Shown one piece after another: positions 3,016 to 22,883 of a DNA stretch of 43,309 nt. The notes under the pieces were generated by a model that saw only the letters and a list, made by a program, of their open reading frames with translations, did no database searches and was not told the origin of the DNA. How positions within the stretch are numbered: position 1 is the first letter of the stretch; every line of letters begins with the position of its first letter. Source of the DNA: Bacteroidia bacterium (lineage in GTDB: Bacteria; Bacteroidota; Bacteroidia; DATLTG01); NCBI GenBank assembly GCA_039924845.1, contig JBDTAC010000057.1, positions 1-43,309 on the forward strand, written 5' to 3'. The position numbers were made by a program, and so were the translations under genes.

Positions 3016-3022
3016 TATAAAA

Positions 3023-4321: not shown

Positions 4322-4345
4322 AACCTAAAATATTATTGTATCAAA

Positions 4346-4960: not shown

Positions 4961-5048
4961 GATTAAAAAAATAATTGAATTGGGCGACAGTAATACTGAA
5001 GAAACTGGCAACAGAGGAACTGAAGAAAACAATAAAAACAATAAAAAA

Positions 5049-5642
5049 ATGAAAACTATAATTTTTTCAGTTGCATTTGTGCTAAGTGCACTCATGCAAG
5101 AAGGTTGTGCGCAACCAAGCAACAACACTTCAGCTAATGCAACAACTCAAATCAAAGCATCAAGTATTAGACTAGAACAAAGCAAAGACTCCGTAGCTGT
5201 TAAAGACCCACTTAACGGAGTGCTTTCAGCATACCTTGCTTTAAAAAATGCTCTTACTGCTGACGATGGCACAACAGCGCAAGCAAGTGCAAAAACAATG
5301 TTGGATAAAATCGGAAAAGTTCCGATGGATAAAATGACAAGCGACCAACATACTCTTTGGATGAAATACATTAAAAAGCTCACTTATGATGCAACACACA
5401 TCAGTGAGACAGACCATGTAGAGCATCAAAGAGAACATTTTATTACACTTTCAAAAAACATCTATGATGTTGAAAAAGGATTCGGCACTAACTCAGAAAC
5501 TCTTTATTATCAATATTGCCCAATGGCAAATGATGGAAAAGGTGCTTATTGGGTAAGTGAAAAAGAAAAAATCAGCAATCCATTTTTAGGAAAGAAAATG
5601 CCAACTTGTGGTTCAACAAAAGAAACATTAAAAGTAAAATAA
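5049..5642 (+). CDS. DUF3347 domain lipoprotein
   Basis: The ATG at 5049 is preferred over an upstream TTG at 4953 because it begins a lipoprotein-like signal (MKTIIFSV to about EGC at residue 19), giving 197 residues. The C-terminal three quarters match DUF3347: a helical start around NGVLSAYLALKNALTADD, then QYCPMANDGKGAYWVSE with a Cys-Pro-Met, and a final NPFLGKKMPTCG. DUF3347 proteins are often encoded beside copper-efflux and CusB-type genes in Bacteroidota, and CPM plus the last Cys look like metal ligands. Periplasmic copper binding is an inference. Confidence 0.8.
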   Translation: MKTIIFSVAFVLSALMQEGCAQPSNNTSANATTQIKASSIRLEQSKDSVAVKDPLNGVLSAYLALKNALTADDGTTAQASAKTMLDKIGKVPMDKMTSDQHTLWMKYIKKLTYDATHISETDHVEHQREHFITLSKNIYDVEKGFGTNSETLYYQYCPMANDGKGAYWVSEKEKISNPFLGKKMPTCGSTKETLKVK

Positions 5643-5648
5643 ATTTTT

Positions 5649-5683
5649 TATAGTAGATCTGATTAGCAACCTGCTCTACTATA
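5649..5683. repeat. Inverted repeat (9-bp arms) after the DUF3347 gene
   Basis: TATAGTAGA at 5649-5657 and TCTACTATA at 5675-5683 are perfect complements around a 17-nt loop, 6 bp past the stop codon. The position suits a transcript 3' end or processing stem, but only a weak AT-rich tract follows. It may separate the cusB-side genes from the oxidase/CusA-side genes. Confidence 0.4.
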
Positions 5684-5738
5684 ATTTAAAAAGAGAATTA
5701 AAGCAATATTGCTTAAAACAATAAATTAAAAAATCAGG

Positions 5739-6200
5739 ATGCCTAATTTTTTAAAAGAGTTTCCAAATCTGCACCCTTTAGTTGTGCATTTTCCCATTGT
5801 GCTTTTATTGCTGGCAGTTTTATCACAACTGGCAACTTTGTTTTTGCCGGAAAACAACCAACTCAAATGGCTCACCTTTTTATTTTTGATTACAGGTTGT
5901 ATCGGTGTATTGGTTGCAATTTATACTGCGGTTCATATTAGCGGTGATGCAAGCGATAAAGCTATTGAGCTTTTTGAAGCGCATCAGCATTTTGGAAAAC
6001 TTACTTTTTGGTTTTCACTCGCTGCAACTATTCTTCGTTTTATTACTTTAAAATGGTTTAAAAGACAATGGTTAGAAATTATTGTTACGGCAATAATAAT
6101 TACAACAGGATCATTGGTTATAATCACAGGACATCACGGAGCGGAATTAGTTCACGTTTACGATGTGGGACCAAAAGATAATAACGTAATGTCAGAATAA
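5739..6200 (+). CDS. DUF2231 membrane protein
   Basis: This 153-residue protein has four hydrophobic segments (about residues 14-34, 43-65, 88-105 and 112-130). It carries the hallmark opening LHPLVVHFPIVLLL and a later GHHGAELVHVYDVG, both typical of DUF2231. The conserved His residues suggest metal or heme contact, although the family has no proven biochemical role. It starts 20 bp before the multicopper oxidase gene, so co-expression is likely. Confidence 0.82.
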   Translation: MPNFLKEFPNLHPLVVHFPIVLLLLAVLSQLATLFLPENNQLKWLTFLFLITGCIGVLVAIYTAVHISGDASDKAIELFEAHQHFGKLTFWFSLAATILRFITLKWFKRQWLEIIVTAIIITTGSLVIITGHHGAELVHVYDVGPKDNNVMSE

Positions 6201-6219
6201 ATTCTAAAACAATTCTAAA

Positions 6220-8571
6220 ATGAAAATAATCAATAATACAACTAAATATATTTTTCGTTTGCTAAAAAAAATTTTCACGAAACAAAATTGCTGCAAGTGT
6301 GCAATTATTTTTTCACTTACTTTAACGGAAACAGCACATGCTCAAAAAGCTGTTAGATATGATTTATATGTAAAAGACACACTCGTCAATTTTTCAGGGA
6401 AAGTAAAACATGCAATCGCAATTAATGGACAAATACCTGCTCCAACACTTACTTTCACTGAAGGCGATACGGCAGAAATTTACGTGCATAATATGCTCAA
6501 TACAGGTACAACACTTCATTGGCACGGACTTTTTGTTCCAAATCAATACGATGGAGTTGCCTATTTAACACAAATGCCCATTCCGCCTCACCAAACACAT
6601 TTATATAAATTTCCAATCATTCAAAATGGAACGTATTGGTATCACAGCCATTTTGGCTTGCAAGAACAAACTGGAATGTATGGCTCATTGATTTTATTGA
6701 AACGAAAAAATGATTCTACTTTTAGAAAAGGTATTGATGATTTGCCTTCAATACCAATTGTTTTAAGCGATTGGACAGATATGAAACCAATGGAAGTTGA
6801 CCGTTCATTACACAATGCTACTGATTGGTTTGCAATAAAAAAAGGAACAACACAAAGTTATGGAGAAGCAATTAAAAGCGGGCATTTAAAAACCAAACTC
6901 ACTAATGAATGGAAACGCATGACGGCAATGGATGTAAGCGATGTGTATTATGAAAAGTTTTTAATAAATGGAAAGAACACGAGTGAAAAACCTCAATTTA
7001 AAGCAGGTGATAAAGTGCGACTGCGTATAGCAAATGGCGGAGCCTCTACTTATTTTTGGCTTAGCTATGCAGGAGGAAAAATTACTGTTGTAGCCAACGA
7101 TGGTAACGATGTAGAACCAGTTCAAGTTGACCGTTTAATAATAGGAGTTTCTGAAACCTACGATGTAATTGTAACAATTCCCGAAAATAAAAGCTACGAA
7201 TTTTTGGCTACTTCTGAAGACCGAACAGGCTACGCTTCGTTATGGTTAGGCAGTGGCGAAAAAGTATCAGCAATAAAACTACCCAGACTAAAATATTTTG
7301 CAGGTATGAAAATGATGAACAATATGATGAAAATAGATGGAAATTTAAAGTCGATGGGAATGCCAATGAGTGATCAAACAATGGATATGAATACTGTAAT
7401 GTATCCTGAAATTACAGGAGAGACAGAGTCAAAAAACAAAAAGCAACCGAATGATGAAATGAACAATATGAAAATGGATAGTATGAATATGCAAAGTGAA
7501 AGTCCTAATATCGTTACGCTAAACTATGGCATGTTACGCTCAACTCATAAAACAACATTACCTCATGATTCAACAATGCTTTTACATTTTGAATTAACAG
7601 GGAATATGAATCGCTATGTGTGGACAATAAACAACAAAACGGTTTCTGAAACGGATAAAATCCTAATTCACAAAGGGGAAAATGTTAAAATTATTCTTTA
7701 CAATAATACCATGATGAGGCATCCCATGCACCTGCATGGGCATGATTTCAGAGTGCTTAATGGACAAGGAGAATATGCGCCTCTAAAAAATGTTCTCGAT
7801 ATTATGCCAATGGAAACCGATACCATTGAGTTTGCTCCAACAGAAGCAAGTGGTGATTGGTTTTTTCATTGTCATATTCTTTATCACATGATGAGTGGAA
7901 TGGGCAGAATATTTAGTTACGAAAACTCACCATCAAATCCTGAATTACCAAATCCAAAATTAGCACTTAGAAAATTATATAATGGCGACAGAGAATTTCA
8001 TTTCATGTCAAAAATTGGCATAGAAACAAATGGAAGCGATGGCAAAGCCATGTTTGCAAACACCCGCTGGCAATTTAGTGAACTTTGGCATTTAGGTTAT
8101 TCTACTGAACATGGTTATGAAAGCGAAACCATGTTCGGGAGATACATCGGAAGAATGCAGTGGTTCTATCCCTATGTAGGATTTGATTACCATTATAAAA
8201 AAGACGGCTTGTCTCAAAAAAATTTCTTTTCTCTTGAAGGCAGCCCAACAAATATTTTCGGAAGTGATTCATATAATTGGTTTAATCAGAAAAGCAATAT
8301 AAACAATCGTCATACAGCAGTAGTAGGTCTTGCATATACCTTACCCTTACTCATAATTGCTGATGCACGAATAGACGGGGACGGAAAATTCCGTTTTCAA
8401 TTATCACGCGAAGACATTTCAATTACTTCTCGATTACGTTTTGGTTGGATGATAAATACTGACAAAGAATATATGGCAGGATTCAGATACATCGCAACAA
8501 AATATATTTCCATCTCCACACACTATGACTGCGATATGGGCTTAGGTGTGGGGGTAATATTTATTTATTAA
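6220..8571 (+). CDS. Multicopper oxidase fused to a CopB-like beta-barrel tail
   Basis: This 783-residue protein has a signal region that ends near AHAQ (about 44). Cupredoxin domains carry the copper ligands HWHG (100-103), HSH (142-144), HPMHLHGH (501-508) and HCHILYHMMSGM (550-561). All type 1, 2 and 3 sites therefore look intact: Cys551, His556 and Met561 for type 1. Between domains lies a Met-rich stretch (about 362-430), as in CueO and CopA. From about residue 575 the sequence changes to alternating aromatic strands (LALRKLYNGDREF, ending GVGVIFIY) resembling the CopB/PcoB outer-membrane barrel. This suggests periplasmic Cu(I) oxidation at the outer membrane. The fusion itself is read directly from one uninterrupted frame. 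Confidence 0.88.
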   Translation: MKIINNTTKYIFRLLKKIFTKQNCCKCAIIFSLTLTETAHAQKAVRYDLYVKDTLVNFSGKVKHAIAINGQIPAPTLTFTEGDTAEIYVHNMLNTGTTLHWHGLFVPNQYDGVAYLTQMPIPPHQTHLYKFPIIQNGTYWYHSHFGLQEQTGMYGSLILLKRKNDSTFRKGIDDLPSIPIVLSDWTDMKPMEVDRSLHNATDWFAIKKGTTQSYGEAIKSGHLKTKLTNEWKRMTAMDVSDVYYEKFLINGKNTSEKPQFKAGDKVRLRIANGGASTYFWLSYAGGKITVVANDGNDVEPVQVDRLIIGVSETYDVIVTIPENKSYEFLATSEDRTGYASLWLGSGEKVSAIKLPRLKYFAGMKMMNNMMKIDGNLKSMGMPMSDQTMDMNTVMYPEITGETESKNKKQPNDEMNNMKMDSMNMQSESPNIVTLNYGMLRSTHKTTLPHDSTMLLHFELTGNMNRYVWTINNKTVSETDKILIHKGENVKIILYNNTMMRHPMHLHGHDFRVLNGQGEYAPLKNVLDIMPMETDTIEFAPTEASGDWFFHCHILYHMMSGMGRIFSYENSPSNPELPNPKLALRKLYNGDREFHFMSKIGIETNGSDGKAMFANTRWQFSELWHLGYSTEHGYESETMFGRYIGRMQWFYPYVGFDYHYKKDGLSQKNFFSLEGSPTNIFGSDSYNWFNQKSNINNRHTAVVGLAYTLPLLIIADARIDGDGKFRFQLSREDISITSRLRFGWMINTDKEYMAGFRYIATKYISISTHYDCDMGLGVGVIFIY

Positions 8572-8581
8572 TTAAATCGTT

Positions 8582-11500
8582 ATGCTAAAAAAAATAATTG
8601 AGTGGAGCATCAATAATAAATTTTTTGTCATTCTTATTGCGATAGTTGTAATAGGAATTGGGATTTATTCCATTGAAGAAATTAAGATTGATGCCATTCC
8701 TGATTTAAGTGATACGCAAGTAATTATTTACACCAACTATCCCGGGCAAGCTGCCGAATTGGTAGAGCAGCAAGTTACATATCCCATTACTACTGCAATG
8801 ATGTCGGTAGCAAAAGCAAAAGTGGTTCGGGGATATTCCTTCTTCGGAGTTTCAATGGTGTATGTTATTTTTAAAGATGGAACTGATTTGTATTGGGCGC
8901 GAAGTCGAGTCTTGGAATACTTAAATACGATTGCCGACAAATTACCTCCCGATGTGAAACCATCAATGGGCCCGGACGCTTCAGGAGTTGGTTGGGTTTA
9001 TGAATATGCACTTACCAGCAAAAGTCACGATTTATCCGAATTGCGCTCTATGCAGGATTGGTATTTGCGCTATCAACTTGAAAGTGTTCCTGGTGTGGCA
9101 GAAGTAGCAAGCATTGGTGGTTATGTCAGAAATTATCGCGTAACGGTAGATCCTATAAAAATGCGCGCTTATCATATTTCTCTGCAAGAAGTTGAAAGTG
9201 CTATCAAGAAAAGTAATAATGATGTTGGCGGTGGAACAATTGAAATGGGCGAAACGGAATTTATGGTTCGCGGAATTGGCTATTTAAAGTCCTTAGCTGA
9301 TTTTAATAAAATTCCTGTTGGGATTTCTACACCTGTTACTTCATCAAATATCACTTCTCTGATAAATAATCAAAATGAAAGTCCTCCTTTAAATGATGAT
9401 TTTAATAGCGCAACGGGAACACCTGTTTATCTTTCGCAAATTGCCACAATTAGCATTGAACCCGAAGCGCGAAGGGGTATTGTCGAATTAAATGGGAAAG
9501 GCGAAACTGTTGGCGGAATTGTAATTATGCGTGATAAAGAAAATGCCGTTGCCACGATAAATGCAGTAAAACAAAAACTGGCAGAATTGAAAAAAGGATT
9601 ACCCGATGATGTAAAAATTACAACTGTTTATGATCGTTCTTCTTTGATAAATAGAAGTGTTGATACATTGCGCGACAAATTAATTGAAGAAGGAGTTATC
9701 GTTTGCCTTATTTGTTTGCTATTTCTATTTCATTTCCGGAGTAGTTTAGTCGCAATTATTATGTTGCCGATTGCCGTTCTCATTTCATTTGTGGTGATGA
9801 ATATACAAGGATTGAGTGCTAATATTATGTCGCTCGGAGGCATTGCTATTGCCATCGGGACGATGGTGGATGCCGCCATTATTATGATTGAAAATGCACA
9901 TAAACATATTGAGGAAGACAATGAAAGTGGAAAAAGTAGATGGAAAATAATTACCGAATCGGCTGTAGAAGTAGGTCCTTCTTTGTTTTTCTCTTTGCTT
10001 GTGATAGCCGTTTCCTTTTTACCCATTTTCACTTTACAAGCACAAGAAGGAAGGATGTTTAAGCCACTTGCTTTCACAAAAACATATTCAATGGCGGCAG
10101 CCGCACTTTTGTCCATAACGCTTGTTCCTGTTTTGATGGGTTTATTAATTCGTGGAAAAATTCCGAAAGAAGAAAAAAATCCGATCAATCGTATCATGAT
10201 AAAAATCTATCACCCGGTTTTAAATTTTGTATTACGATTCAAAAAAATAATTTTATTGTCTGCATTGATATTACTTGGTTTAACATTCATTCCATTTCAT
10301 AAAATAGGTTCTGAATTTATGCCGTCTTTGTGGGAAGGAGATTTACTTTATATGCCGTCCAGTCTGCCTGGAATTTCCATCACAAAAGCAGCAGAAGTAT
10401 TGCAACAAACCGATAAAATTATTCGCACATTTCCAGAAGTAAAAACAGTTTTCGGAAAAATGGGAAGAGCTGAAACTTCTACCGATCCTGCTCCATTAGA
10501 TATGATGGAAACAACCATTATGTTAAAACCACAAAGTGAATGGAGAGAAGGAATGACACAGGAAAAATTAATTCAGCAAATGGATAGAGCTTTGCAAATT
10601 CCGGGATTAACAAACGTTTGGACAATGCCTATCAAAAATAGAATTGAGATGTTAAGCACCGGAATAAAAACACCAGTTGGAATAAAAATAGCCGGACCAG
10701 ATTTGCACGTGCTTGATAGTTTAGGAAGACGCATTGAAACAATTATGCACACCGTTCCTGGAACGGCTTCGGCTTATGCCGAAAGACTATTTGGCGGTAA
10801 TTACATTGATTTTACTATTAATCGCGAAGCTGCTGCACGTTACGGATTAGCAGTAAGCGATATAGAAAATGTAGTTCAAACAGCTATTGGCGGAAAAGAT
10901 ATTTCGGAGATGATAGTGGGTTTGCAACGCTATCCAATTTCCATTCGTTATCCGAGAGAACTGCGTGATAATATTGAAAGTTTAAAAAATATTTTGGTGA
11001 GCTCACCTCTTGGCGCACAAATTCCGCTCGGACAATTAGGAACATTTGAATTTAAAAAAGCTCCGATGTTAATTCGCAGTGAAGATAGTCGCCCGAATGA
11101 TTGGGTGTATGTAGATGTGAAAGGCACTGACATTGGCACTTATGTAAAAAATGCAAAAGAAATTGTTGCGAAAAGCTTTACACTTCCAACAGGTTATACA
11201 CTTTCGTGGAGCGGACAATTTCAATCTATGCAAAGCGCCAACAATCGTTTAAAATGGATTATTCCGTTTACGTTGTTTCTTATTTTTGTGATTCTCTATC
11301 TCAATACAAAATCACTTATAAAAGTAGCTATTATTTTTTTAGCAGTTCCCTTTTCATTAATCGGGGCATTTTGGATATTGTATTTACTCCATTATAATTT
11401 GAGCATTGCTGTGTGGGTTGGGATAATTGCTTTAGCAGGATTAGACGCAGAAACAGGCATTATTATGTTGTTGTATTTAGATATAGCTTATATCGAAATG

Positions 11501-11791
11501 AAAAAAAATGGGCGGATGTTAAATCAAGAAGATCTGAAAGAAGCCATTCATCACGGAGCAGTAAAAAGAATTCGTCCAAAAATGATGACTGCAACAGCAA
11601 TCATAGCAGGTTTGTTGCCAATAATGTGGAGTACAGGATCGGGAGCAGATGTAATGAAGCGCATTGCAGCACCAATGGTTGGTGGAATCATTACAAGCGT
11701 TCTTTTAGAATTATTGATTTATCCTATTATCTATTACTTGTGGAAAAATAGGGAATTAAAAAAACAGAAGCTGAAACAGCCAGTGGATTAA
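8582..11791 (+). CDS. cusA: CusA-type Cu(I)/Ag(I) RND efflux pump
   Basis: This 1069-residue protein is an inner-membrane RND pump of the heavy-metal class. The TM4 motif AIGTMVDAAIIMIENAHKH is that of the HME-4 (Cu/Ag) group, not of the Zn/Co/Cd CzcA group. The CusA Met triad is retained at Met591 (YMPSSLPG), Met641 (DMMETT) and Met690 (EMLSTGIK). Their spacing of 50 and 49 residues equals that of E. coli Met573, Met623 and Met672. Length is full. An insert around residues 255-275 (SNITSLINNQNESPPL) is longer than in E. coli. It starts 10 bp after the oxidase gene and would work with the CusB-like and TolC-like proteins encoded upstream. Confidence 0.95.
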   Translation: MLKKIIEWSINNKFFVILIAIVVIGIGIYSIEEIKIDAIPDLSDTQVIIYTNYPGQAAELVEQQVTYPITTAMMSVAKAKVVRGYSFFGVSMVYVIFKDGTDLYWARSRVLEYLNTIADKLPPDVKPSMGPDASGVGWVYEYALTSKSHDLSELRSMQDWYLRYQLESVPGVAEVASIGGYVRNYRVTVDPIKMRAYHISLQEVESAIKKSNNDVGGGTIEMGETEFMVRGIGYLKSLADFNKIPVGISTPVTSSNITSLINNQNESPPLNDDFNSATGTPVYLSQIATISIEPEARRGIVELNGKGETVGGIVIMRDKENAVATINAVKQKLAELKKGLPDDVKITTVYDRSSLINRSVDTLRDKLIEEGVIVCLICLLFLFHFRSSLVAIIMLPIAVLISFVVMNIQGLSANIMSLGGIAIAIGTMVDAAIIMIENAHKHIEEDNESGKSRWKIITESAVEVGPSLFFSLLVIAVSFLPIFTLQAQEGRMFKPLAFTKTYSMAAAALLSITLVPVLMGLLIRGKIPKEEKNPINRIMIKIYHPVLNFVLRFKKIILLSALILLGLTFIPFHKIGSEFMPSLWEGDLLYMPSSLPGISITKAAEVLQQTDKIIRTFPEVKTVFGKMGRAETSTDPAPLDMMETTIMLKPQSEWREGMTQEKLIQQMDRALQIPGLTNVWTMPIKNRIEMLSTGIKTPVGIKIAGPDLHVLDSLGRRIETIMHTVPGTASAYAERLFGGNYIDFTINREAAARYGLAVSDIENVVQTAIGGKDISEMIVGLQRYPISIRYPRELRDNIESLKNILVSSPLGAQIPLGQLGTFEFKKAPMLIRSEDSRPNDWVYVDVKGTDIGTYVKNAKEIVAKSFTLPTGYTLSWSGQFQSMQSANNRLKWIIPFTLFLIFVILYLNTKSLIKVAIIFLAVPFSLIGAFWILYLLHYNLSIAVWVGIIALAGLDAETGIIMLLYLDIAYIEMKKNGRMLNQEDLKEAIHHGAVKRIRPKMMTATAIIAGLLPIMWSTGSGADVMKRIAAPMVGGIITSVLLELLIYPIIYYLWKNRELKKQKLKQPVD

Positions 11792-14108: not shown

Positions 14109-14120
14109 TGACGTAAGTCA
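14109..14120 (+). promoter_or_regulatory. CRP/FNR-type box TGAC-GTAA-GTCA
   Basis: A perfect dyad with the half-site TGAC, flanked by A and T. Its centre (14114.5) is 36.5 bp from the last base of the -7 element at 14144-14151. No TTTG lies at the usual -33 spacing, as expected where an activator replaces it. The same geometry recurs at two promoters near 19.3-19.5 kb. Confidence 0.65.
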
Positions 14121-14143
14121 TTTTTTATCTTTTTCATCGTAGG

Positions 14144-14151
14144 TAACTTTG
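14144..14151 (+). promoter_or_regulatory. -7 element (TAACTTTG)
   Basis: Exact TAnnTTTG match, 21 bp before the ATG at 14173. It is associated with the dyad at 14109-14120 and would give a leader of about 15 nt. Confidence 0.6.
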
Positions 14152-14172
14152 AATAATCAAAAAAATAAAACT

Positions 14173-14529
14173 ATGGAAACAATTCATATTGCTGCAAAAT
14201 ACCACCAGGTGGGAATTGCAAAAAAGGAAAACAAAGAAAGTGTTCTTTCAAAATGGATCGCTCAGATAAGCCCATCGGACGAGGATTTACGAATAAATCA
14301 TTTTGGTATTGTGTCGTTTGCGCTTATATTTCAGGCTTGCGTGGGCTCAATTGCATGTGCATTATTATTGGCGAATGGTTTAAATAATGTATGGTTTATA
14401 GCGTGTGTAGGAACCACAATGGCTATTTTAGTAACTATCCTTGGACAATCTCCTACCAGATGGGTGTTGCGAGCTTTTTATGTCGCATCTATAGTAAATT
14501 TTATTATTATTATTTACTGTTTGCTATAA
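14173..14529 (+). CDS. Small membrane protein, probable box-regulated gene
   Basis: ATG at 14173 is preferred over a TTG at 14149, because that TTG overlaps the end of the -7 promoter element. The product has 118 residues: a soluble N-terminal 45 (METIHIAAKYHQVGIA...) and three hydrophobic segments (about 48-66, 72-90 and 97-117). No family is recognised. The promoter carries a TGAC-N4-GTCA dyad placed as at the stress-protein promoters near 19.4 kb, so it is probably switched by the same CRP/FNR-type regulator. Membrane location is the only functional statement supported. Confidence 0.6.
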   Translation: METIHIAAKYHQVGIAKKENKESVLSKWIAQISPSDEDLRINHFGIVSFALIFQACVGSIACALLLANGLNNVWFIACVGTTMAILVTILGQSPTRWVLRAFYVASIVNFIIIIYCLL

Positions 14530-14582
14530 TAAATTTTCGTGTTTCAAAGTAAAAAGCACTTCCAATATTTTGGTTAGTGTTT

Positions 14583-14771
14583 TTATTTTATTTTTTTAAT
14601 TATTAAATTTATTGTTATTAGGATTATTGAAACTCCAAACATAATCCAATCATATTTCAATGCCTGTTGATTATAAATAGTTTTAATAATATTTATAATG
14701 CTCATAAAGCCAATTCCCGCCCAGAAACTAACGCCTATAAGAAACCATTTAATTTTTTGTTCTTTATTCAT
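14583..14771 (-). CDS. Small two-TM membrane protein
   Basis: This 62-residue protein has a basic start (MNKEQKIKW), two hydrophobic stretches (about 10-28 and 42-58) and a Lys-rich end (IIKKIK). An AAGGAG-like ribosome binding site lies about 5 nt before the ATG on the minus strand, which is uncommon in this window and supports translation. No family recognised. It lies 55 bp downstream of the SpoIIAA-like gene, beyond an inverted repeat. Confidence 0.5.
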   Translation of the reverse strand: MNKEQKIKWFLIGVSFWAGIGFMSIINIIKTIYNQQALKYDWIMFGVSIILITINLIIKKIK

Positions 14772-14784
14772 TTTTCTCCTTTTA

Positions 14785-14810
14785 TTTATATTGAAAGTTC
14801 AATATAAATA
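14785..14810. repeat. Perfect 12-bp inverted repeat before the small membrane gene
   Basis: ATTTATATTGAA at 14785-14796, spacer AG, then its exact complement at 14799-14810. It is 16 bp after the SpoIIAA-like stop and 13 bp before the next start on the minus strand. It could be an operator or an AT-rich hairpin at the gene boundary. GC content is too low for a strong terminator. Confidence 0.45.
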
Positions 14811-14826
14811 AACAAAAATTAATCAT

Positions 14827-15192
14827 TCAATTTTCAATAATCCATTTTTTTGCTTCTTCTAATTCGGAGTTTTTAAACACCCGAACTTCACAGGGGATTA
14901 TATGTCCGAAAAATTTTACCGAAGCGTTTATTAGATGATTATCCGAAACCAATGCACATTTATACCAAGCAAATAAATTCGTCATTCCTGTTTTTGCATC
15001 ATCCAACATGGCTGATAATTCAAATCCTGAAAAATTAGCTCCAATATGGTAAAGGATACTGATTTTTTTATTTCGCTTTAACTTATCTTCAATAGCAGGA
15101 ATTAAAACGGTTTCGTAATCTGTTCCTGTAACTTTACCTTCTGCGGTAATTCCCAGAACATTATCTGGGAAGTCTTTCATTAAGTGTATCAT
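14827..15192 (-). CDS. SpoIIAA-like (STAS/SEC14) protein
   Basis: This 121-residue soluble protein is recognised by GKVTGTDYETVLIPAIEDKL near residues 19-38, KISILYHIGANFSGFE near 43-58, the central aspartate run DDAKTG and a final VRVFKNSELEEAKKWI. This is the SpoIIAA-like fold (DUF3478/STAS-like). Members are small single-domain proteins, sometimes linked to stress and membrane functions, without a fixed role. It follows the cytochrome genes with a 63-bp gap and may be the last member of that transcription unit. Confidence 0.8.
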   Translation of the reverse strand: MIHLMKDFPDNVLGITAEGKVTGTDYETVLIPAIEDKLKRNKKISILYHIGANFSGFELSAMLDDAKTGMTNLFAWYKCALVSDNHLINASVKFFGHIIPCEVRVFKNSELEEAKKWIIEN

Positions 15193-15255
15193 GTTTATTA
15201 ATTAGTTTGATTAAATTTTTTTGTTGTGAACTTAAAATTAGAGCTAAAATTTATT

Positions 15256-15843
15256 TTACTTTTCCATAAGCCTTTTCAAGGAAGTTCCTAATACATAAAT
15301 GATAAGTAACATAAATAGAACAAGGAAAAAAAGCAGGTATTCTGTAAAACTAAACATATTTAACAATGAGCTTCCAGATGAAGCAGGTTCAATTTTCTTT
15401 TGTATTGCTGGATTGACAGTCGTGTTTTGAGATGAAACTGAATCTGCCGAAGCAACTTTTGTATTTTGAGGCGAAGCAGTATTTGTGGAAGTCGCCACAA
15501 CTTCTGCGCCTCCTACTTTAATGAAATTAAGGATTGCTTTAATTTGGTCTTCATTAAGTGCCTGATCAGGCATCGGAATATTACTATTGTCAGCAAATAA
15601 TTTGACAGCAGCGGTATCGCCAGCCTGCACAAGAGATTGGGATGATTTTATCCATTTTAATAACCATTTTTCACTCCGGTAGCTTTCAACGCCTTTTAAA
15701 TCTGGGCCTACTAATTTACCTTTTCCTATTGTGTGACAAGCCACACAATTGCTTGTAAATAAATCTGAACCGTTATATGCAAAAAGTTGTAAATGTGAAG
15801 CGATTAGTAAGGTAATTAACGAAATTAGAAACTTAGATTTCAT
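15256..15843 (-). CDS. Membrane-anchored mono-heme cytochrome c
   Basis: This 195-residue protein has a Sec signal (residues 1-22) and heme motif CVACH at 33-37 followed by GKGKLVGPDLKGVE, a class I cytochrome signature. The likely axial Met is in NIPMPDQALNED (about residue 92). A Ser/Thr/Asn-rich linker (about 115-155) leads to a C-terminal transmembrane helix (about 166-188). It would carry electrons while tethered to the inner membrane. It lies 30 bp downstream of another c-type cytochrome gene. Confidence 0.88.
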   Translation of the reverse strand: MKSKFLISLITLLIASHLQLFAYNGSDLFTSNCVACHTIGKGKLVGPDLKGVESYRSEKWLLKWIKSSQSLVQAGDTAAVKLFADNSNIPMPDQALNEDQIKAILNFIKVGGAEVVATSTNTASPQNTKVASADSVSSQNTTVNPAIQKKIEPASSGSSLLNMFSFTEYLLFFLVLFMLLIIYVLGTSLKRLMEK

Positions 15844-15873
15844 GATTTGTATGTTTTAGAATAAGTATTTATT

Positions 15874-16176
15874 TTAGTTAGCAGATTTCAGAAAAGCCCT
15901 GATTTTAGAGATTTCTTGATCTGTGAGTAAGGCTTTTTGACGCATGTGTTCACAAGCTGCATCCCATTGGTCATCACTAAATGTGTGTGGGTCGGGTGCG
16001 TTATGACAACGACTACAATTCTCTCCCCATAATTGAGCGCCCGATTTTGATGAAATTTCTTCAGGAACTTTGCAGCCGTTAATAATAGTTGCGCAAGCTA
16101 TAGCTATAAGAAACATGACTAATACTGTTTTGTTGCGAATTCCCTTTTTCATATCATTTGTTTTTAATAATTTCAT
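15874..16176 (-). CDS. Small c-type cytochrome lipoprotein
   Basis: This 100-residue protein has a lipoprotein signal ending in NGC (Cys35) and heme motif CSRCH at 54-58. Helix-forming segments follow (FSDDQWDAACEHMRQKA, LTDQEISKIRAFLKS). The Met in CEHMRQ (about 78) may be the second heme ligand. The ATG giving MKKGIRNK (residue 9 here) is an equally good start. It lies 7 bp after the porin-like gene stop and is co-oriented with the other cytochrome genes, so one operon is likely. Confidence 0.82.
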   Translation of the reverse strand: MKLLKTNDMKKGIRNKTVLVMFLIAIACATIINGCKVPEEISSKSGAQLWGENCSRCHNAPDPHTFSDDQWDAACEHMRQKALLTDQEISKIRAFLKSAN

Positions 16177-16183
16177 ATGCTTT

Positions 16184-17362
16184 TTAAAAATACCACATCC
16201 CTCTTAATGTAATTGTAGTTTGAGTGGGGCTGCCACTTTGAGTATAAATATCATAAGCAAGATTTACGGGTGTTTTCCAAGTATACCAATAGGTAAGACA
16301 AATAGTAGTTTGGTTTATTGGATTTCCTCCCCATAAAGCAGTTGTTGGAGTAATTAATGAGCCAATTCTACCTCCTAATTCTAGATTAGAAAGGAATTTA
16401 TTTGAGAAGCCGCTTGCACATACCGTTGCGCCTAAATACCAACCACTTATTTGGTTATTAAAACTAGGAAAGAGAAGCGAGTCTGTTTCTGATTTATATA
16501 GATTGAAATTTTGAGTTTGAGAATATTCGTATTGTCCCTGTACCCTCAACATAATAGGGCTAAATAGATGATAATAATTTACATACGCTGCTGCCGATGT
16601 ACTACTTATATTTTCAAAATGGCTACCAGCATCGCCTGTCTTTGGCGTGTATTGTGCCGATACTCCTATTTCTAGATTTGAATTAGAGAAAGGTAATAAA
16701 CCAAGTTCGCCTCCAACCGCTTTATTCTTGTTATTGTCTGTATAATTACCATAATTTAGAATTCCATTTTGAATTCCTGTACTATCAACTACTAATTGAG
16801 GACCGTTAGCTACGTATAGCTGGTAAAGCAATTTTGAATAACCAGCTTGTATTCCTCCTTGTATACCTATACCTGATTCTGTTTGTACTCCAATTCCCAT
16901 TCCTACAGGAGTTGAGCAGTAGCGATTTGTGAAATCATCTAATATCCCTTCATACATACCTGATCTGGGCTGGAAATTACCTCCAAATAAATAAACTGCA
17001 GGGGCAATTCTATAATAAATAATAGCCTCATTTAAGTTTACGCTAGAACCTCCGCCAGGAGATTGGTTTACGGCAACTTCTACCTGCACATCAAGGAAAA
17101 GTCGGTCGGTAATTTTGACTAAAGGCATAAGCATTAACCCTAAAGGATCTGCTCCGAAACTATTTGTAGAAGGAGCACCTTTAAATTTATTATTTTGCCA
17201 CGAAGTAAAAACTTCTCCTGCAAGTAAAAACTTTTCACCTCCTCCTTGAGGTGAATTTACGACATCTGTTTGGGATGTTGAATCTGTTTGGGCAGAGCTT
17301 GAATTTACTAAAGCGCCTATTATTATTGCAAAAATTAAAGCGGTTAGTTTGGTTATTTTCAT
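16184..17362 (-). CDS. Porin-like outer-membrane protein
   Basis: This 392-residue protein has a Sec signal (to about SSAQ, residue 25). The body is rich in Gly, Asn, Tyr and Phe, with alternating strands such as RLFLDVQVEVAVN, AVYLFGGNFQPRSGMYEG and ITLRGMWYF at the end, where a terminal aromatic is typical of an outer-membrane barrel. No named family is recognised with confidence. It lies 11 bp after one cytochrome gene and 7 bp before another, so it probably forms a redox-linked envelope module with them. The substrate is unknown. Confidence 0.65.
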   Translation of the reverse strand: MKITKLTALIFAIIIGALVNSSSAQTDSTSQTDVVNSPQGGGEKFLLAGEVFTSWQNNKFKGAPSTNSFGADPLGLMLMPLVKITDRLFLDVQVEVAVNQSPGGGSSVNLNEAIIYYRIAPAVYLFGGNFQPRSGMYEGILDDFTNRYCSTPVGMGIGVQTESGIGIQGGIQAGYSKLLYQLYVANGPQLVVDSTGIQNGILNYGNYTDNNKNKAVGGELGLLPFSNSNLEIGVSAQYTPKTGDAGSHFENISSTSAAAYVNYYHLFSPIMLRVQGQYEYSQTQNFNLYKSETDSLLFPSFNNQISGWYLGATVCASGFSNKFLSNLELGGRIGSLITPTTALWGGNPINQTTICLTYWYTWKTPVNLAYDIYTQSGSPTQTTITLRGMWYF

Positions 17363-17373
17363 GTGTAGATGTA

Positions 17374-17829
17374 TTATTTAGTTGTTTTCTTTAACGTCCT
17401 TATGAAATTTATTACTTGCCAACGCTGCGTCTTAGTCAGGATTTTCGCGTAAGAAGCCATCGCATATTTTCCAGTTGTAATTTCCCAAAAAATAGCTCCA
17501 TCTGTTTGCTTTTGAAAGGTTTCAGAAGTATGGTCAACAGGTCTGGGATTCAGTGCTGCTGAAGCAATTCCATTACCCCTTCCTTCAGCACCATGACATA
17601 CAACACAATAACGTATGTATATTTTTTTACCTTCTGCAATTGAAGCAACATTTCCTTTAAGAGGATTTTTAATAGTATCGGCTAATTTAGGTGCAACCCA
17701 ACCTACAGCTTGTTGCGGAGGAGTTGCGCTTATAAAAAAAGCACTAAAAAGGGCAATCATTATACTGATTGGAAGAATCCGTTTCTTTATAACAAACGTC
17801 ATTACGCTATTTTCCTGTTTTGATTCCAT
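17374..17829 (-). CDS. Periplasmic cytochrome c, first gene of the cluster
   Basis: This 151-residue protein has an N-terminal hydrophobic segment (about 17-35) and heme motif CVVCHG at 75-80, followed by AEGRGNGIAS. A Met-containing loop KYAMASYAKILT and a final helix RWQVINFIRTL follow, both standard for class I cytochromes of respiratory chains. The start could also be the Met at residue 10. It is first in the minus-strand series 17.8-14.8 kb. The 176 bp upstream contains no clean TAnnTTTG or TGAY-N4-TCA box. Confidence 0.86.
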   Translation of the reverse strand: MESKQENSVMTFVIKKRILPISIMIALFSAFFISATPPQQAVGWVAPKLADTIKNPLKGNVASIAEGKKIYIRYCVVCHGAEGRGNGIASAALNPRPVDHTSETFQKQTDGAIFWEITTGKYAMASYAKILTKTQRWQVINFIRTLKKTTK

Positions 17830-18005
17830 GATTTTATAATTTGAATTGTAATTAAATTATTACAGTACAAAACTGGCATTCCTCAGAATAAGAAACATTA
17901 CACCTTAAATAAGATAACTTATATATAACACAGGTTTTCAAAATTTTATTTTCCTTTAATCAAAAGAGTAAAGACATGGTTCGAAAATTATTTTTTCAAT
18001 AAAGA

Positions 18006-18824
18006 TTATTCGTGAATGCTTAAAATTGGAACATCAGCGTGTAGTGCAATTTTTTTAGAGATACTTTGATGAAATAATCCTTCAATAAAATTATAATTAT
18101 GAGGCATTATTGTAAGAATATCCACTTTGTTTTTTTTCACAAATTGATTTATTTCTTCTATCAAATTATCACCTGAAGCGAAATACAAAGAGTGTTTTAC
18201 ATCCATCAATGCATCTTCTAAATTTACTTCAGCAGCCGCTTTTTGGTACGATATAATTTCTGTCTTTTTTAAAACATCAAAAATGAGTACGTGCGATTCG
18301 AATAAGTGCACGATTTTTTTAAAATTAGTTACAACACTGGTGGGTATGATTGCCTTATAATCACAAGCAAGAGCAATGTTCTTAGGTTTTTTAAAAGTTG
18401 TATTTTCAGGAATGCATAATACTGGGAGTACAGCCTTTTTCATGATATCTATAGTATGACTACCAAGAATGTAGCTTGAATTTTCAGCTTTTTCGATTCC
18501 CATTACTACCATATCTGCCTTCTTCGTTTCTAACATATTTATGATTTCATCTACAACGAAACCTTGTTGTACGATTAATTCGGTTTTAATTTCGCCACAA
18601 CTTATTTTAATCTTCTTAGCAAGATCATCCATCATCGCCCATTTATCTTTTTCAATTTCCTCGTATGGAACAGGAATGATAGGCACGTCATAAACCGGTA
18701 TGGCAATGGTGTAAGTATGAAAAATAATTAATTTAGAGTCTGTTGCTTTAGCAAGTTCGGCTGCGTACAGTACTGCATTTTCAGAAATTACCGAGAAGTC
18801 TGTTGGTGCAAGAATAGCTTTCAT
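18006..18824 (-). CDS. Universal stress protein, two UspA domains
   Basis: The start is set at the Met before KAILAPTDFS, giving 272 residues. The frame is open further upstream only because it overlaps the DoxX gene. Domain 1 (about 1-145) has the UspA opening ILAPTDFSVISENAVLYA and the ligand-loop region VVMGIEKAENSSYILGSHT. Domain 2 (about 150-272) is a degenerate copy ending in VPILSIHE. Tandem UspA proteins are common in Bacteroidota and usually respond to hypoxia or starvation. It lies 11 bp downstream of the DoxX-like gene, so it shares that box-bearing promoter. Confidence 0.88.
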   Translation of the reverse strand: MKAILAPTDFSVISENAVLYAAELAKATDSKLIIFHTYTIAIPVYDVPIIPVPYEEIEKDKWAMMDDLAKKIKISCGEIKTELIVQQGFVVDEIINMLETKKADMVVMGIEKAENSSYILGSHTIDIMKKAVLPVLCIPENTTFKKPKNIALACDYKAIIPTSVVTNFKKIVHLFESHVLIFDVLKKTEIISYQKAAAEVNLEDALMDVKHSLYFASGDNLIEEINQFVKKNKVDILTIMPHNYNFIEGLFHQSISKKIALHADVPILSIHE

Positions 18825-18835
18825 TTTTTTTGAGA

Positions 18836-19285
18836 TTAAAGGGTTAAAAAGAAATTTAAATGGAATGAACGTAAAAGAGTATCTATTGAAAATAAATCCC
18901 ATTGTGAAGGAATTATTAATAAGAAAATTAATAGTAAAATGCGCGGGAATATATGTTTGGTATCCCACATCGGTTCTACAAGTCCAAATGCAATCGAAAC
19001 AAAAAGAATGTCGAAACCTAATAAATAAAGACTATAATATTTTGCGAATCCTAAAATAAGTGCCGCACCGCAAATTAATTCTACATAAGAAGTAAAGTAA
19101 GCTCCAACGATGCTGAAAAATTTAGGAACCCCTTTCGAAACAAGTGGGAGGTGGATTGTTTCTACTACATTTTTCACTTTAATGCAAAATATTTTGTCGT
19201 AGCCTTGATAAAAGAAAAGTAAGCCAAGAAAAACTCTCGCTATGAACGCGACATACATTTCACTATACTCTGTTGAAATAATCAT
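18836..19285 (-). CDS. DoxX-like membrane protein
   Basis: This 149-residue protein has four hydrophobic segments. The first contains IARVFLGLLFFYQGYDKIF, the usual DoxX/DoxD opening. A middle SYVELICGAALILGFAKYYSLYLLG segment is also typical. It is the first gene of a two-gene unit with the tandem UspA protein. The promoter has TAGTTTTG (minus strand) and a TGAC-N4-CTCA box. The role is unknown, and redox or membrane stress is suggested only by context. Confidence 0.75.
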   Translation of the reverse strand: MIISTEYSEMYVAFIARVFLGLLFFYQGYDKIFCIKVKNVVETIHLPLVSKGVPKFFSIVGAYFTSYVELICGAALILGFAKYYSLYLLGFDILFVSIAFGLVEPMWDTKHIFPRILLLIFLLIIPSQWDLFSIDTLLRSFHLNFFLTL

Positions 19286-19304
19286 TTGCTTTAAATTTAT
19301 GTAA

Positions 19305-19312
19305 CAAAACTA
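19305..19312 (-). promoter_or_regulatory. -7 element (TAGTTTTG) for the DoxX-UspA unit
   Basis: On the minus strand this is an exact TAnnTTTG match, 20 bp before the DoxX start. Its last base is 36.5 bp from the centre of the box at 19336-19347, identical to two other promoters in the window. Confidence 0.6.
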
Positions 19313-19335
19313 TCTCCATTAATTTGTAACACTTA

Positions 19336-19347
19336 TGACGCTTCTCA
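19336..19347 (-). promoter_or_regulatory. CRP/FNR-type box, one half imperfect (TGAC-GCTT-CTCA)
   Basis: Seven of the eight half-site positions agree with TGAY-N4-RTCA. On its own it would be weak, but its distance to the -7 element equals that of the perfect boxes, which supports function. Confidence 0.5.
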
Positions 19348-19357
19348 GGTTATAAAA

Positions 19358-19369
19358 TGATTTATATCA
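19358..19369. promoter_or_regulatory. CRP/FNR-type box TGAT-TTAT-ATCA
   Basis: A perfect dyad flanked by A and T in the divergent region between the DoxX-like and UspA genes. It is centred 22 bp upstream of the imperfect box as seen from the minus-strand promoter, so it could be a second, distal site. Confidence 0.5.
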
Positions 19370-19400
19370 TATCTAAATTTTCGAATGTATTTTTCGTGCC

Positions 19401-19412
19401 TGATTAAAATCA
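19401..19412. promoter_or_regulatory. CRP/FNR-type box TGAT-TAAA-ATCA
   Basis: A perfect dyad, centred exactly 22 bp (two helical turns) upstream of the box at 19423-19434. Two sites on one DNA face are typical of tandem activator binding. Confidence 0.5.
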
Positions 19413-19422
19413 TGTTTTAATA

Positions 19423-19434
19423 TGATCAAAATCA
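19423..19434 (+). promoter_or_regulatory. CRP/FNR-type box TGAT-CAAA-ATCA, promoter-proximal
   Basis: A perfect dyad of half-sites with centre 19428.5. It is 36.5 bp before the last base of the -7-like TTACTTTG at 19458-19465, the same geometry as at the 14.1-kb and minus-strand 19.3-kb promoters. Confidence 0.6.
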
Positions 19435-19457
19435 GCTATTGAAATTTGTTAAATTTT

Positions 19458-19465
19458 TTACTTTG
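19458..19465 (+). promoter_or_regulatory. -7-like element (TTACTTTG) for the second UspA gene
   Basis: One mismatch to TAnnTTTG. It lies 45 bp before the ATG at 19511. The box upstream and the weak core suggest an activator-dependent promoter. A near-dyad TGAC-N5-GTCA at 19471-19483 overlaps the expected start site. Confidence 0.45.
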
Positions 19466-19510: not shown

Positions 19511-20227
19511 ATGAAAAATATTCTTGTACTAACTGACTTCTCTGAAAATGCAACAAACGCTGCATTTTACGCACTTAATTTATTTAAAAATGATTCGCAT
19601 AAATTTACACTGATTAATGCTTTTGATAAACCACACCCGCAAAAAGATTTATTGATTTCTGTTCATGATATTTTATTTAAAGAGGCAGAAAAGAAATTAA
19701 AGGATGAGCAAAAAAAACTTTCTGCTGTTTTTGAAAAACCATTTATCGAAATACATCCACGCTCAGAAGAAATTAGTTCGGAAGAATCGTTAGCTTATTT
19801 ATTAAGAAAGGCGAAAATATTGCTCGTGGTTATCGGAATAAAAAGTAATGAGAAACCACTTAGTCCTATTTATTCTATGTTGATGCAACAAGCTTGGTCA
19901 CCATTGTTATTAGTGCCGGATCATGCACATTTTAGTGAACCGAAAGAAATATTTGTTGTTGCATCAGATACAAAAATCAAAGGATTTGAAATAAAAAGAG
20001 GTCTCCATAAAATTTGCACTCCAAAAAACAATATCAATCAACTCATTTTTCATAAAGAAGACACTGAAAATTATTGGATAGACCTTCTAAAAAAAATGCG
20101 AGATTTACACCAAATAACAAAAATTATTTTTGTTATTTCTCAAGGAGATGTGCTTGATCAGGCTATTCGCCAACATCAAATAGATAAATTATTTTCACTA
20201 ATGCCGATATTAATAATCCGTCTTTAA
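19511..20227 (+). CDS. Universal stress protein, UspA family
   Basis: This 238-residue protein begins with ILVLTDFSENATNAAFYALNL, the UspA first strand and helix. The region around LLVVIGIKSNEKPL and SPLLLVPDHA (about 110-140) ends the first domain. The second half (about 145-238) is a degenerate UspA-like fold without a clear ATP motif. The nucleotide-binding glycines of the classical motif are poorly kept even in domain 1. It is transcribed towards the kinase/regulator pair that follows after 49 bp and may belong to their regulon. Confidence 0.82.
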   Translation: MKNILVLTDFSENATNAAFYALNLFKNDSHKFTLINAFDKPHPQKDLLISVHDILFKEAEKKLKDEQKKLSAVFEKPFIEIHPRSEEISSEESLAYLLRKAKILLVVIGIKSNEKPLSPIYSMLMQQAWSPLLLVPDHAHFSEPKEIFVVASDTKIKGFEIKRGLHKICTPKNNINQLIFHKEDTENYWIDLLKKMRDLHQITKIIFVISQGDVLDQAIRQHQIDKLFSLMPILIIRL

Positions 20228-20276: not shown

Positions 20277-21821
20277 ATGAAGAATTCCGGAAAAGAATTG
20301 GATCAAGTATATAAATTATTATTTGAATCGGCAGGAGAAGCTTTGTTTGTGGTCAATACAAAAGGGATTATTCAACTGATGAATGTGCGAGCTTGTGAAA
20401 TGTTTGGCTATGAAGAGAGTGAACTTGTTGGTCAGCCATTGGAAATTTTGCTTCCAGAAAGTGATCGAAAAGCACATGTAAAACACAGGAAAGATTATAA
20501 CGAAGCTCCCAGAAGACGTTCGATGGGAATGGGAATGGATTTGAGAGGAATTCGCAAAGATGGAAAGCAATTGCCGATAGAAGTAAGTTTAAATTATTTC
20601 GAAAGTGGTGGAGAGATGTTTATTATGAGTTTAGTAACTGATATTTCTGAAAGGCGAAAAGTAGAAGAATCTGTTCGCAAATTAAACGAAGAACTTGAAA
20701 ATAAAGTAAACAGTCGTACGAAGGAACTTAAAGAGAGTCAGCAATTGTATCAAGTTATTGCAAGAAATTTTCCGGCAGGGACGATTAATGTTTTTGACAG
20801 AAAATTAAATTACGTTTTTGTGGAAGGAATGGAGCTTTTTAAATACGGGGTTACTAGTGAAAAATTAGTTGGAACAAGTTATTTAGATCGAGTTTCGGAA
20901 GAAATACGAGAGGAAATAAAAACTAAATTATTGGAAGTATTTGCCGGCAAAAATGCTACATTCGAGATTCAATTTAAAGGGCGTTTTTACTCTATGAATG
21001 CAGTTGCTTTAAATAATTCGGAAGGAAAAATTGAGCAAATTTTATTAGTCGAGCAAAATATTACTGCTCAAAAAACAGCCGAGGAAGATGTTAAAACCGC
21101 ATTGATAAAGGAGCAAGAATTAAATCAACTTAAATCACGTTTTGTTTCGATGGCTTCGCACGAATTTCGGACTCCTTTGAGTACCATACTTTCATCAACT
21201 GCGCTTATCGAAGCCTATTTGGAGCCTGAAAAATTTAATTTCGAGACCATAAAAAATAAGACAGATAAACATCTGAAAAGAATAAAATCTTCGGTTGGTA
21301 ATTTGACAAATATTCTTAACGATTTTCTTTCATTAGATAAATTGGAATTAGGTAAAATACAGCCTCAATCAATTGAATTTAATATTAAGCAATTTTTAAT
21401 TGAATTGACAGAAGAAATTCAAACGACATTAAAAAGCGGACAAAAAATAAATTATAGCCATACATCTGAAGTTGTTGATGTTTTTTTGGACGGACAAATG
21501 TTGAGAAACATTGTTATAAATTTATTGTCAAATGCTAGTAAGTATTCTCCTGAAGAATCAACAATTAAACTCACAAGTAATATTGAAAGAAATAATTTAA
21601 TTATTATGATAACAGATCAAGGCATTGGAATCCCTGAAGTGGAACAAGAAAAAATATTTGAACGTTTTTTTAGAGCCAAAAATGTTACGAATATTCAGGG
21701 AACAGGTTTGGGTTTAAATATTGTAAAAAGATACGTTGATTTAATGAAGGGCGAAATTTCTTTTTCAAGCAAAGAAGGAGAAGGAACTACATTCAAGCTA
21801 ATTATAAAAATAAAAAAATAA
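20277..21821 (+). CDS. PAS-domain sensor histidine kinase
   Basis: This 514-residue cytoplasmic kinase has no membrane segment. It has PAS1 (about 8-125, with FESAGEALFVVNTKGII and DISERRKVEE), a coiled coil (about 128-155), PAS2 (about 156-265) and a HisKA domain. The H-box SMASHEFRTPLS has its phospho-acceptor at His295. A HATPase domain follows, with the N box INLLSNASKYSPEE, G1 DQGIGIP and G2 GTGLGLNIVKRY. No cofactor-binding signature was recognised in either PAS domain, so the signal is unknown. A TATTTTTG element at 20245-20252 may be its promoter. The response regulator starts 6 bp after its stop. Confidence 0.93.
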   Translation: MKNSGKELDQVYKLLFESAGEALFVVNTKGIIQLMNVRACEMFGYEESELVGQPLEILLPESDRKAHVKHRKDYNEAPRRRSMGMGMDLRGIRKDGKQLPIEVSLNYFESGGEMFIMSLVTDISERRKVEESVRKLNEELENKVNSRTKELKESQQLYQVIARNFPAGTINVFDRKLNYVFVEGMELFKYGVTSEKLVGTSYLDRVSEEIREEIKTKLLEVFAGKNATFEIQFKGRFYSMNAVALNNSEGKIEQILLVEQNITAQKTAEEDVKTALIKEQELNQLKSRFVSMASHEFRTPLSTILSSTALIEAYLEPEKFNFETIKNKTDKHLKRIKSSVGNLTNILNDFLSLDKLELGKIQPQSIEFNIKQFLIELTEEIQTTLKSGQKINYSHTSEVVDVFLDGQMLRNIVINLLSNASKYSPEESTIKLTSNIERNNLIIMITDQGIGIPEVEQEKIFERFFRAKNVTNIQGTGLGLNIVKRYVDLMKGEISFSSKEGEGTTFKLIIKIKK

Positions 21822-21827
21822 CATTTT

Positions 21828-22883
21828 ATGAAAAAAATTTTACTTATCGAAGACAACGTTGAGATGCGAGAAAACATCGCAGAAATATTAGAGTTAGCAA
21901 ACTACAAGGTACTGAGTGCGGAAAATGGAAAAATTGGTGTGGATATGGCAAAAGAGGAAATTCCCGATCTTATTTTATGTGATATTATGATGCCTGATTT
22001 AGATGGCTATGGCGTACTTCATATTTTAAGTAAAGACATTAGAATGAGTAGTATTCCATTTGTCTTTCTAACCGCTAAAGCAGATAAAAGCGAAGTCAGA
22101 AAAGGAATGAATTTAGGTGCTGATGATTACCTCACCAAGCCTTTCGATAAAACCGAATTACTCGATACAATTGAAGTGCGTTTGAAGCGAAGTGATTTAT
22201 TTAAGAAAAACTATGCTTCTAATTTTACTGGGTTTTCAGAATTTGTAGATGAAGCAAAAAAAAATTTTCTACCTAAAATTAATACTTCAGATTATAAAAT
22301 GCGGAGCTACAAAAACAAAGAAATGATTTATCATGAAGGAGATCTTCCGAATAATGTTTATTATGTAAATAAGGGTAAAATTAAAACGTGTAAAATGAAT
22401 CAAAATGGGAAAGAATTAATTACCGGGATTTATGAGCAGGGAGACTTCTTTGGCTATATTGCAACGCTTGAAGGAGTCGAATATGGTGATTACGCAACTG
22501 CACTTGAAAATTCAGAAATTGCACTCATTCCGCAAGATGATTTTATGACCCTTATTTATGCAAATCGAGAAGTGGCAGCTAGGTTTATTAAAATACTTGC
22601 CAATAATATTGCTGAAAATGAAGAACGCTTATTAGGATTAGCCTATAATTCTGTTCGAAACCGTGTTGCAAATGCACTAATCCAAATACAAAAAAAACAT
22701 ATAGAGGACAATAAACATATTTTAGTTTCGAGAGAGGATTTGGCAAATATGGTTGGTACTTCTACAGAATCATTAATCCGTACCTTATCTGATTTTAAAA
22801 GTGAAAAAATTATAGAAACAGAAGGAAGAGAAATAAAAATACTTGATATGAATGGATTGGAAAAGGTAAAAAAGATTTCTTAA
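21828..22883 (+). CDS. Response regulator fused to CRP/FNR-type DNA-binding protein
   Basis: This 351-residue protein has a receiver domain (about 1-122) with phospho-acceptor Asp52 (LILCDIMMPD) and the LTKPF lysine. A linker leads to a cyclic-nucleotide-binding-like domain (about 150-265, RSYKNKEMIYHEGDLPNNVYYV). A CRP-type winged helix follows (about 270-345). The recognition helix TSTESLIRTL keeps Glu314 and Arg318, the pair that reads TGA half-sites in CRP and FNR. No Fe-S cysteines are seen, so it is not an FNR-type oxygen sensor itself. Phosphorylation by the adjacent kinase is likely. The TGAY-N4-TCA boxes nearby are probable targets by inference. Confidence 0.92.
   Translation: MKKILLIEDNVEMRENIAEILELANYKVLSAENGKIGVDMAKEEIPDLILCDIMMPDLDGYGVLHILSKDIRMSSIPFVFLTAKADKSEVRKGMNLGADDYLTKPFDKTELLDTIEVRLKRSDLFKKNYASNFTGFSEFVDEAKKNFLPKINTSDYKMRSYKNKEMIYHEGDLPNNVYYVNKGKIKTCKMNQNGKELITGIYEQGDFFGYIATLEGVEYGDYATALENSEIALIPQDDFMTLIYANREVAARFIKILANNIAENEERLLGLAYNSVRNRVANALIQIQKKHIEDNKHILVSREDLANMVGTSTESLIRTLSDFKSEKIIETEGREIKILDMNGLEKVKKIS

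Follow-up and report, generated by a model that had tools for sequence, protein, structure and literature searches.

The window analysed here, i.e., the whole stretch of 43,309 nucleotides from a Bacteroidia bacterium, contains a two-component gene set, its neighbouring stress genes and three predicted promoters with CRP/FNR-type boxes. The features are as follows.

14109..14120, plus strand: single CRP/FNR-type box TGACGTAAGTCA, predicted centre -41.5
14144..14151, plus strand: -7 element TAACTTTG, beginning 23 nt past the 14109 box
14173..14529, plus strand: small membrane protein (the 14149 membrane protein), no Pfam match
18006..18824, minus strand: UspA-family protein behind DoxX (PF00582, one stretch matched)
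18836..19285, minus strand: DoxX-family membrane protein (Pfam PF07681)
19305..19312, minus strand: -7 element TAGTTTTG of the DoxX promoter
19336..19347, minus strand: proximal box of the DoxX promoter, TGACGCTTCTCA (TGAGAAGCGTCA on the minus strand), predicted -41.5
19358..19369, minus strand: distal box of the DoxX promoter, TGATTTATATCA, 22 bp upstream of the proximal box, predicted -63.5
19401..19412, plus strand: distal box of the usp-kinase-regulator promoter, TGATTAAAATCA, 22 bp upstream of the proximal box
19423..19434, plus strand: proximal box of the usp-kinase-regulator promoter, TGATCAAAATCA, predicted -41.5
19458..19465, plus strand: -7 element TTACTTTG of the usp-kinase-regulator promoter, one mismatch to TAnnTTTG
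19511..20227, plus strand: UspA-family protein (PF00582), first gene of the regulator operon
20277..21821, plus strand: soluble PAS-PAS histidine kinase, without a FixL-type haem histidine
21828..22883, plus strand: REC-CRP regulator (receiver, cNMP-like domain and Crp helix-turn-helix)

All five boxes were found by direct sequence check where the original prediction had placed them and with the sequences it gave. Its measurements also hold: the distance from the box centre to the last base of the -7 element is 36.5 bp, i.e., a gap of 23 nt (gap 23), for TAACTTTG, TAGTTTTG (minus strand) and TTACTTTG, and the boxes of the pairs 19336/19358 and 19401/19423 are each exactly 22 bp apart. Both pairs occupy the intergenic stretch that separates doxX-usp on the minus strand from usp-kinase-REC-CRP on the plus strand; for the 14109 box, a second box 22 bp further upstream was looked for, and none was found. 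The RTCA half of the 19336 box is broken (CTCA), and the mismatch in TTACTTTG falls in the TA of TAnnTTTG. The 19336 box has an aligned counterpart in locus L045, which keeps the 19358 box as TGATATATATCA. The open reading frame of the UspA-family protein behind DoxX was predicted from an upstream GTG (18006-18968), with an ATG at 18824. Elsewhere in the window, positions 1753-11791 hold a copper/metal efflux cluster (an outer membrane efflux protein, an HlyD/CusB-type adaptor with a heavy-metal domain, DUF3347, a multicopper oxidase and an RND pump), and positions 15256-17829, which have no gap-23 box, hold an operon-like series of cytochrome c genes together with a 392-aa protein that gave no match.

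The class II activator position of CRP and FNR is -41.5, and the window promoters carry the palindromic TGA-N6-TCA box of class II CRP/FNR promoters. In mapped promoters of Flavobacterium psychrophilum, TAnnTTTG occupies positions -12 to -5 (PMC9723704); thus, a distance of 36.5 bp to the end of the -7 element puts the box centre at -41.5. By inference, the box centres in the window would lie near -41.5, abutting the sigma contact, as in class II activation.

To have equal spacing at three promoters by chance was originally judged hard, and this is borne out: dinucleotide-shuffled intergenic DNA of the window gave 0.015 gap-23 pairs, compared to three observed. Genome-wide pattern searches in the same organism gave 13 sites when up to one mismatch was allowed, versus three reversed controls. 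Among 35 loose matches in this genome, five were at gap 23 and six at gap 18, a modest spacing excess; the own-genome spacing was rejected as sole proof. One gap-23 site of this genome (L007:1438-1480, contig C18) is located within the 3' end of a ccmB-like gene that is directly followed by a ccmC-like one; sequences much like it occur in genomes G320 and G093, and the site may represent either a conserved internal promoter or coding constraint.

The comparison was extended to the surroundings of REC-CRP homologues and to the class. In the window and 80 REC-CRP loci, an intergenic TGA-N6-TCA followed by TAnnTTTG was found at gap 23 in 42 cases, and at any other gap in three cases at most. The strict form of the pattern occurred 37 times at gap 23 and 0-4 times at every other gap (1.21 Mb around 80 REC-CRP homologues), and the looser form 48 times around REC-CRP, compared to 0.15 in shuffled intergenic DNA. 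The density of strict gap-23 sites near REC-CRP, approximately 1 per 33 kb, can be set against 4.55 sites per whole genome. The proposed scan of related genomes for the motif at fixed spacing returned 1345 sites versus 42 reversed controls in 396 Bacteroidia genomes; these genomes are related, and the class-wide counts are accordingly not independent. The comparative evidence for the gap-23 arrangement is overwhelming, and it is supported that the fixed spacing represents a real activator-promoter arrangement.

The REC-CRP protein, with matches in 199 of the 396 genomes (E <= 1e-50), carries the Glu-x3-Arg recognition helix of the FNR type; E314 and R318, which had been named as the residues reading TGA, are both invariant (81/81 homologues). 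The phospho-acceptor D52 is likewise invariant, together with T82 and K104 (81/81), as expected of a response regulator. An N-terminal Fe-S cysteine cluster of the FNR type was looked for in REC-CRP and is absent, with the receiver in its place. Two other inputs were considered and rejected: (i) a cAMP-gated CRP, given that Y210, Y219 and G220 align with the cAMP-contacting Glu72 and Arg82-Ser83; and (ii) a haem FixL kinase, given that the window kinase has Arg at the aligned haem-His position (by eye). Among the kinases with a readable motif, a single one has the haem-ligand His. Because the receiver residues are invariant, the cAMP residues are absent and the kinase lacks the haem His, the input to REC-CRP is likely to be phosphorylation. 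This looks like a swap of the FNR-type sensor for two-component input. A search of open-licence papers turned up no description of an operator for a Bacteroidota REC-CRP.

Near REC-CRP genes, the boxes are concentrated in intergenic DNA: their density is 1.41 per kb there versus 0.087 in coding DNA (16-fold), with 241 intergenic copies versus 7-19 for permuted motifs, and a perfect box is present in 46 of 77 REC-CRP operon leaders versus 34% of other leaders in the same stretches. Strict intergenic box pairs near REC-CRP are 22 bp apart in 28 cases and 23 bp apart in seven, with two cases at most for each other distance; in such pairs, a -7 element follows the proximal box at gap 23 in 18 exact cases, or 50 when one mismatch is allowed. 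Two tandem pairs are present in the window, compared to none in 200 dinucleotide shuffles of its intergenic DNA; 19401/19423, preceding usp-kinase-REC-CRP, is the only strict 22-bp pair counted in this genome. Class-wide, tandem pairs number 2.04 per genome with REC-CRP versus 0.53 without (4e-14), and at least one pair was detected in 62% of genomes with REC-CRP versus 26% of those without a REC-CRP match. Within mixed families, tandems go up with REC-CRP in 18 and down in five (P = 0.018). Genome G273 was left out of the tandem count because its matches are a repeat family (109 tandem-22 matches versus 61 reversed controls). The 22-bp partner boxes are a better mark of REC-CRP than gap-23 promoters alone.

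Gap-23 sites as such are also more frequent with REC-CRP (4.55 versus 2.23 per genome, Mann-Whitney 4e-12; higher in 19 of 24 mixed families). Given 2.23 sites per genome even without REC-CRP, its presence or absence alone leaves gap-23 sites unexplained, and a single-owner model was therefore dropped. All 13 genomes that lack REC-CRP and have at least three tandems encode a stand-alone CRP that is related to the CRP part of REC-CRP; among the 12 that are readable, most have an FNR-like N-terminal CxxC..C..C pattern together with the recognition helix GT[AS]TE[ST]xIRxLS[ED]F, near-identical to that of REC-CRP. These motifs are suggestive of a link between the tandems in such genomes and FNR-like stand-alone CRPs.

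In the genome under study, two cNMP/CRP proteins were found, REC-CRP and a 197-aa CRP on contig C86 (CRP2), which keeps the Glu-x3-Arg helix and shares its operon with hemerythrins, a globin and an NDH-2-like protein. Two loci of the same genome (L258 and L259) appear by eye to encode qNOR-like and cNOR-like nitric oxide reductases, which would fit a nitric-oxide role for CRP2.

The explanation that we regard as rather probable as a whole is a phospho-switched REC-CRP acting by class II activation through tandem boxes at -41.5 and -63.5. REC-CRP would be a class II activator of the FNR/FixK kind, with a phosphorylation receiver in place of the usual sensor end. The adjoining kinase would sense the signal and phosphorylate D52, and the active REC-CRP dimer would bind TGAY-N4-RTCA. 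Two such dimers, 22 bp apart at -63.5 and -41.5, would be adjacent on each of the DoxX-Usp and Usp-kinase-REC-CRP promoters; judging from its position, the -41.5 dimer would abut the housekeeping sigma factor on TAnnTTTG and activate transcription. Such activation at the usp-kinase-REC-CRP promoter implies that the system would amplify itself. At the 14109 promoter, a single box takes the -41.5 position, and control may be exerted by CRP2, REC-CRP or both.

It is possible, albeit doubtful, that REC-CRP alone activates all three promoters, with the single 14109 box as a weaker or non-cooperative target. The 14109 box is 7.7 kb from the REC-CRP gene and scores slightly better with the REC-CRP matrix than with the CRP2 matrix (15.6 versus 13.8), and relatives of the 14149 protein near REC-CRP, often within a few kb of it, have tandem boxes (L233, L238 and L252; also L237, L241 and L245). 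Conversely, the 14109 box is single, whereas the other two promoters are double, and relatives of this gene near C86-type CRPs have single extended boxes (L228-L231 and L253; also L232). Moreover, a paralogue on contig C86, 44% identical to the 14149 protein, has its own gap-23 box, which is clearly of the CRP2 type (19.9 with the CRP2 matrix versus 10.2 with that of REC-CRP). This paralogue's gap-23 promoter is at L031:1501-1543, 3 kb from CRP2, and a third copy of the gene is a 59-aa fragment (C43:5887-6021). The training sets of the two matrices separate only partly, and the 14109, 19336, 19401 and 19423 boxes are not clearly assigned; nor do the box flanks in the window clearly separate the regulators. 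The lone box of the 14109 promoter fits CRP2 about as well as REC-CRP. With a single box of neither type clearly and a paralogue box of the CRP2 type, one activator for all three promoters is unproven and probably wrong. The claim that equal spacing implies one activator is not supported, the -41.5 layout being common also without REC-CRP and around the second CRP. What survives of the nomination of REC-CRP concerns the two adjoining divergent promoters.

An improbable alternative is that the C86 CRP controls all three promoters and REC-CRP is a bystander. No cNMP/CRP protein besides it and REC-CRP was found in the genome, it keeps the Glu-x3-Arg helix, and gap-23 sites are equally dense near its relatives (nine strict sites in 316 kb), with 5.06 gap-23 sites per genome where a C86-type CRP occurs without REC-CRP. 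However, those genomes have 0.82 tandems each, the boxes near C86-type CRPs are single and extended, like TTATGATTnnAATCATAA, tandem pairs nearby are rare (three in 316 kb), and the two tandem promoters of the window flank the REC-CRP operon. Still less probable is that the boxes are repression operators or are never bound, given that the strict -41.5 spacing, its class-wide conservation (1345 versus 42) and the 16-fold intergenic excess fit activation rather than repression or chance. We retain REC-CRP as the likely activator at the adjoining pair of divergent promoters, because the boxes, the 22-bp pairs and the gap-23 promoters cluster at REC-CRP genes, its own operon included.

Near REC-CRP, gap-23 or tandem promoters precede the kinase or REC-CRP gene (13), UspA (11 loci), CcoG (4), Hsp20 (3), the bifunctional cbb3 oxidase CcoNO, HemA, globin and a PEP synthase-type enzyme (2 each), DoxX, thioredoxin and cytochrome c; a few of these counts are inflated by three Arenibacter loci that are nearly copies of one another. 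By this gene content, the predicted REC-CRP regulon seems to serve oxygen limitation and energy stress and to include positive autoregulation. The COX1-family matches of the genome under study included no recognisable cbb3 oxidase, and its COX1-family loci, identified by eye as aa3, qNOR, cNOR-like and an NnrS-like candidate, lack a gap-23 box. The kinase signal is most likely low oxygen or energy stress, with oxygen extrapolated from relatives because no cbb3 oxidase was recognised in this genome.

This architecture resembles FixL-FixJ-FixK2 of rhizobia in having a PAS kinase, a receiver and a CRP-family output, and in the cbb3 oxidase and CcoG/FixG of the regulon predicted in relatives; it differs in the fusion of receiver and CRP in one protein, in the tandem 22-bp boxes and in the haem histidine, which the window kinase lacks and a single readable kinase has. 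With class II FNR/ANR of Proteobacteria it shares the TGAY-N4-RTCA core read by Glu-x3-Arg, the predicted -41.5 position and oxygen-limitation genes, whereas REC-CRP has no N-terminal Fe-S cysteines, the -7 element is that of Bacteroidota and a second box is fixed at -63.5. The DosRS dormancy regulon of mycobacteria has a similar cargo (UspA, Hsp20, a CBS protein and a PEP synthase-type enzyme); however, DosR is a LuxR-type response regulator with a different operator. CRP/FNR homologues in Flavobacteriales and Saprospiraceae MAGs, of the same class and family as REC-CRP, were read as MalR (PMC8510549); in contrast to the present case, the main text of that study does not mention receiver domains, and a Bacteroides MalR matrix was used.

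The recurrence of the double site around REC-CRP across the class points to a previously unreported two-component control system, probably for low oxygen or energy stress. Whether it is a class-wide, phospho-switched counterpart of FNR/FixK in Bacteroidia, with a new, cooperative -63.5/-41.5 tandem operator serving low-oxygen and dormancy genes, we consider evenly balanced. To our knowledge, operators are known for few Bacteroidia transcription factors. A rule legible in the sequence itself (box, 23 nt, TAnnTTTG, and a partner 22 bp upstream) would make regulons predictable in hundreds of genomes, and the switching of cbb3 oxidase and stress genes in Bacteroidia is made testable by the spacing rule.
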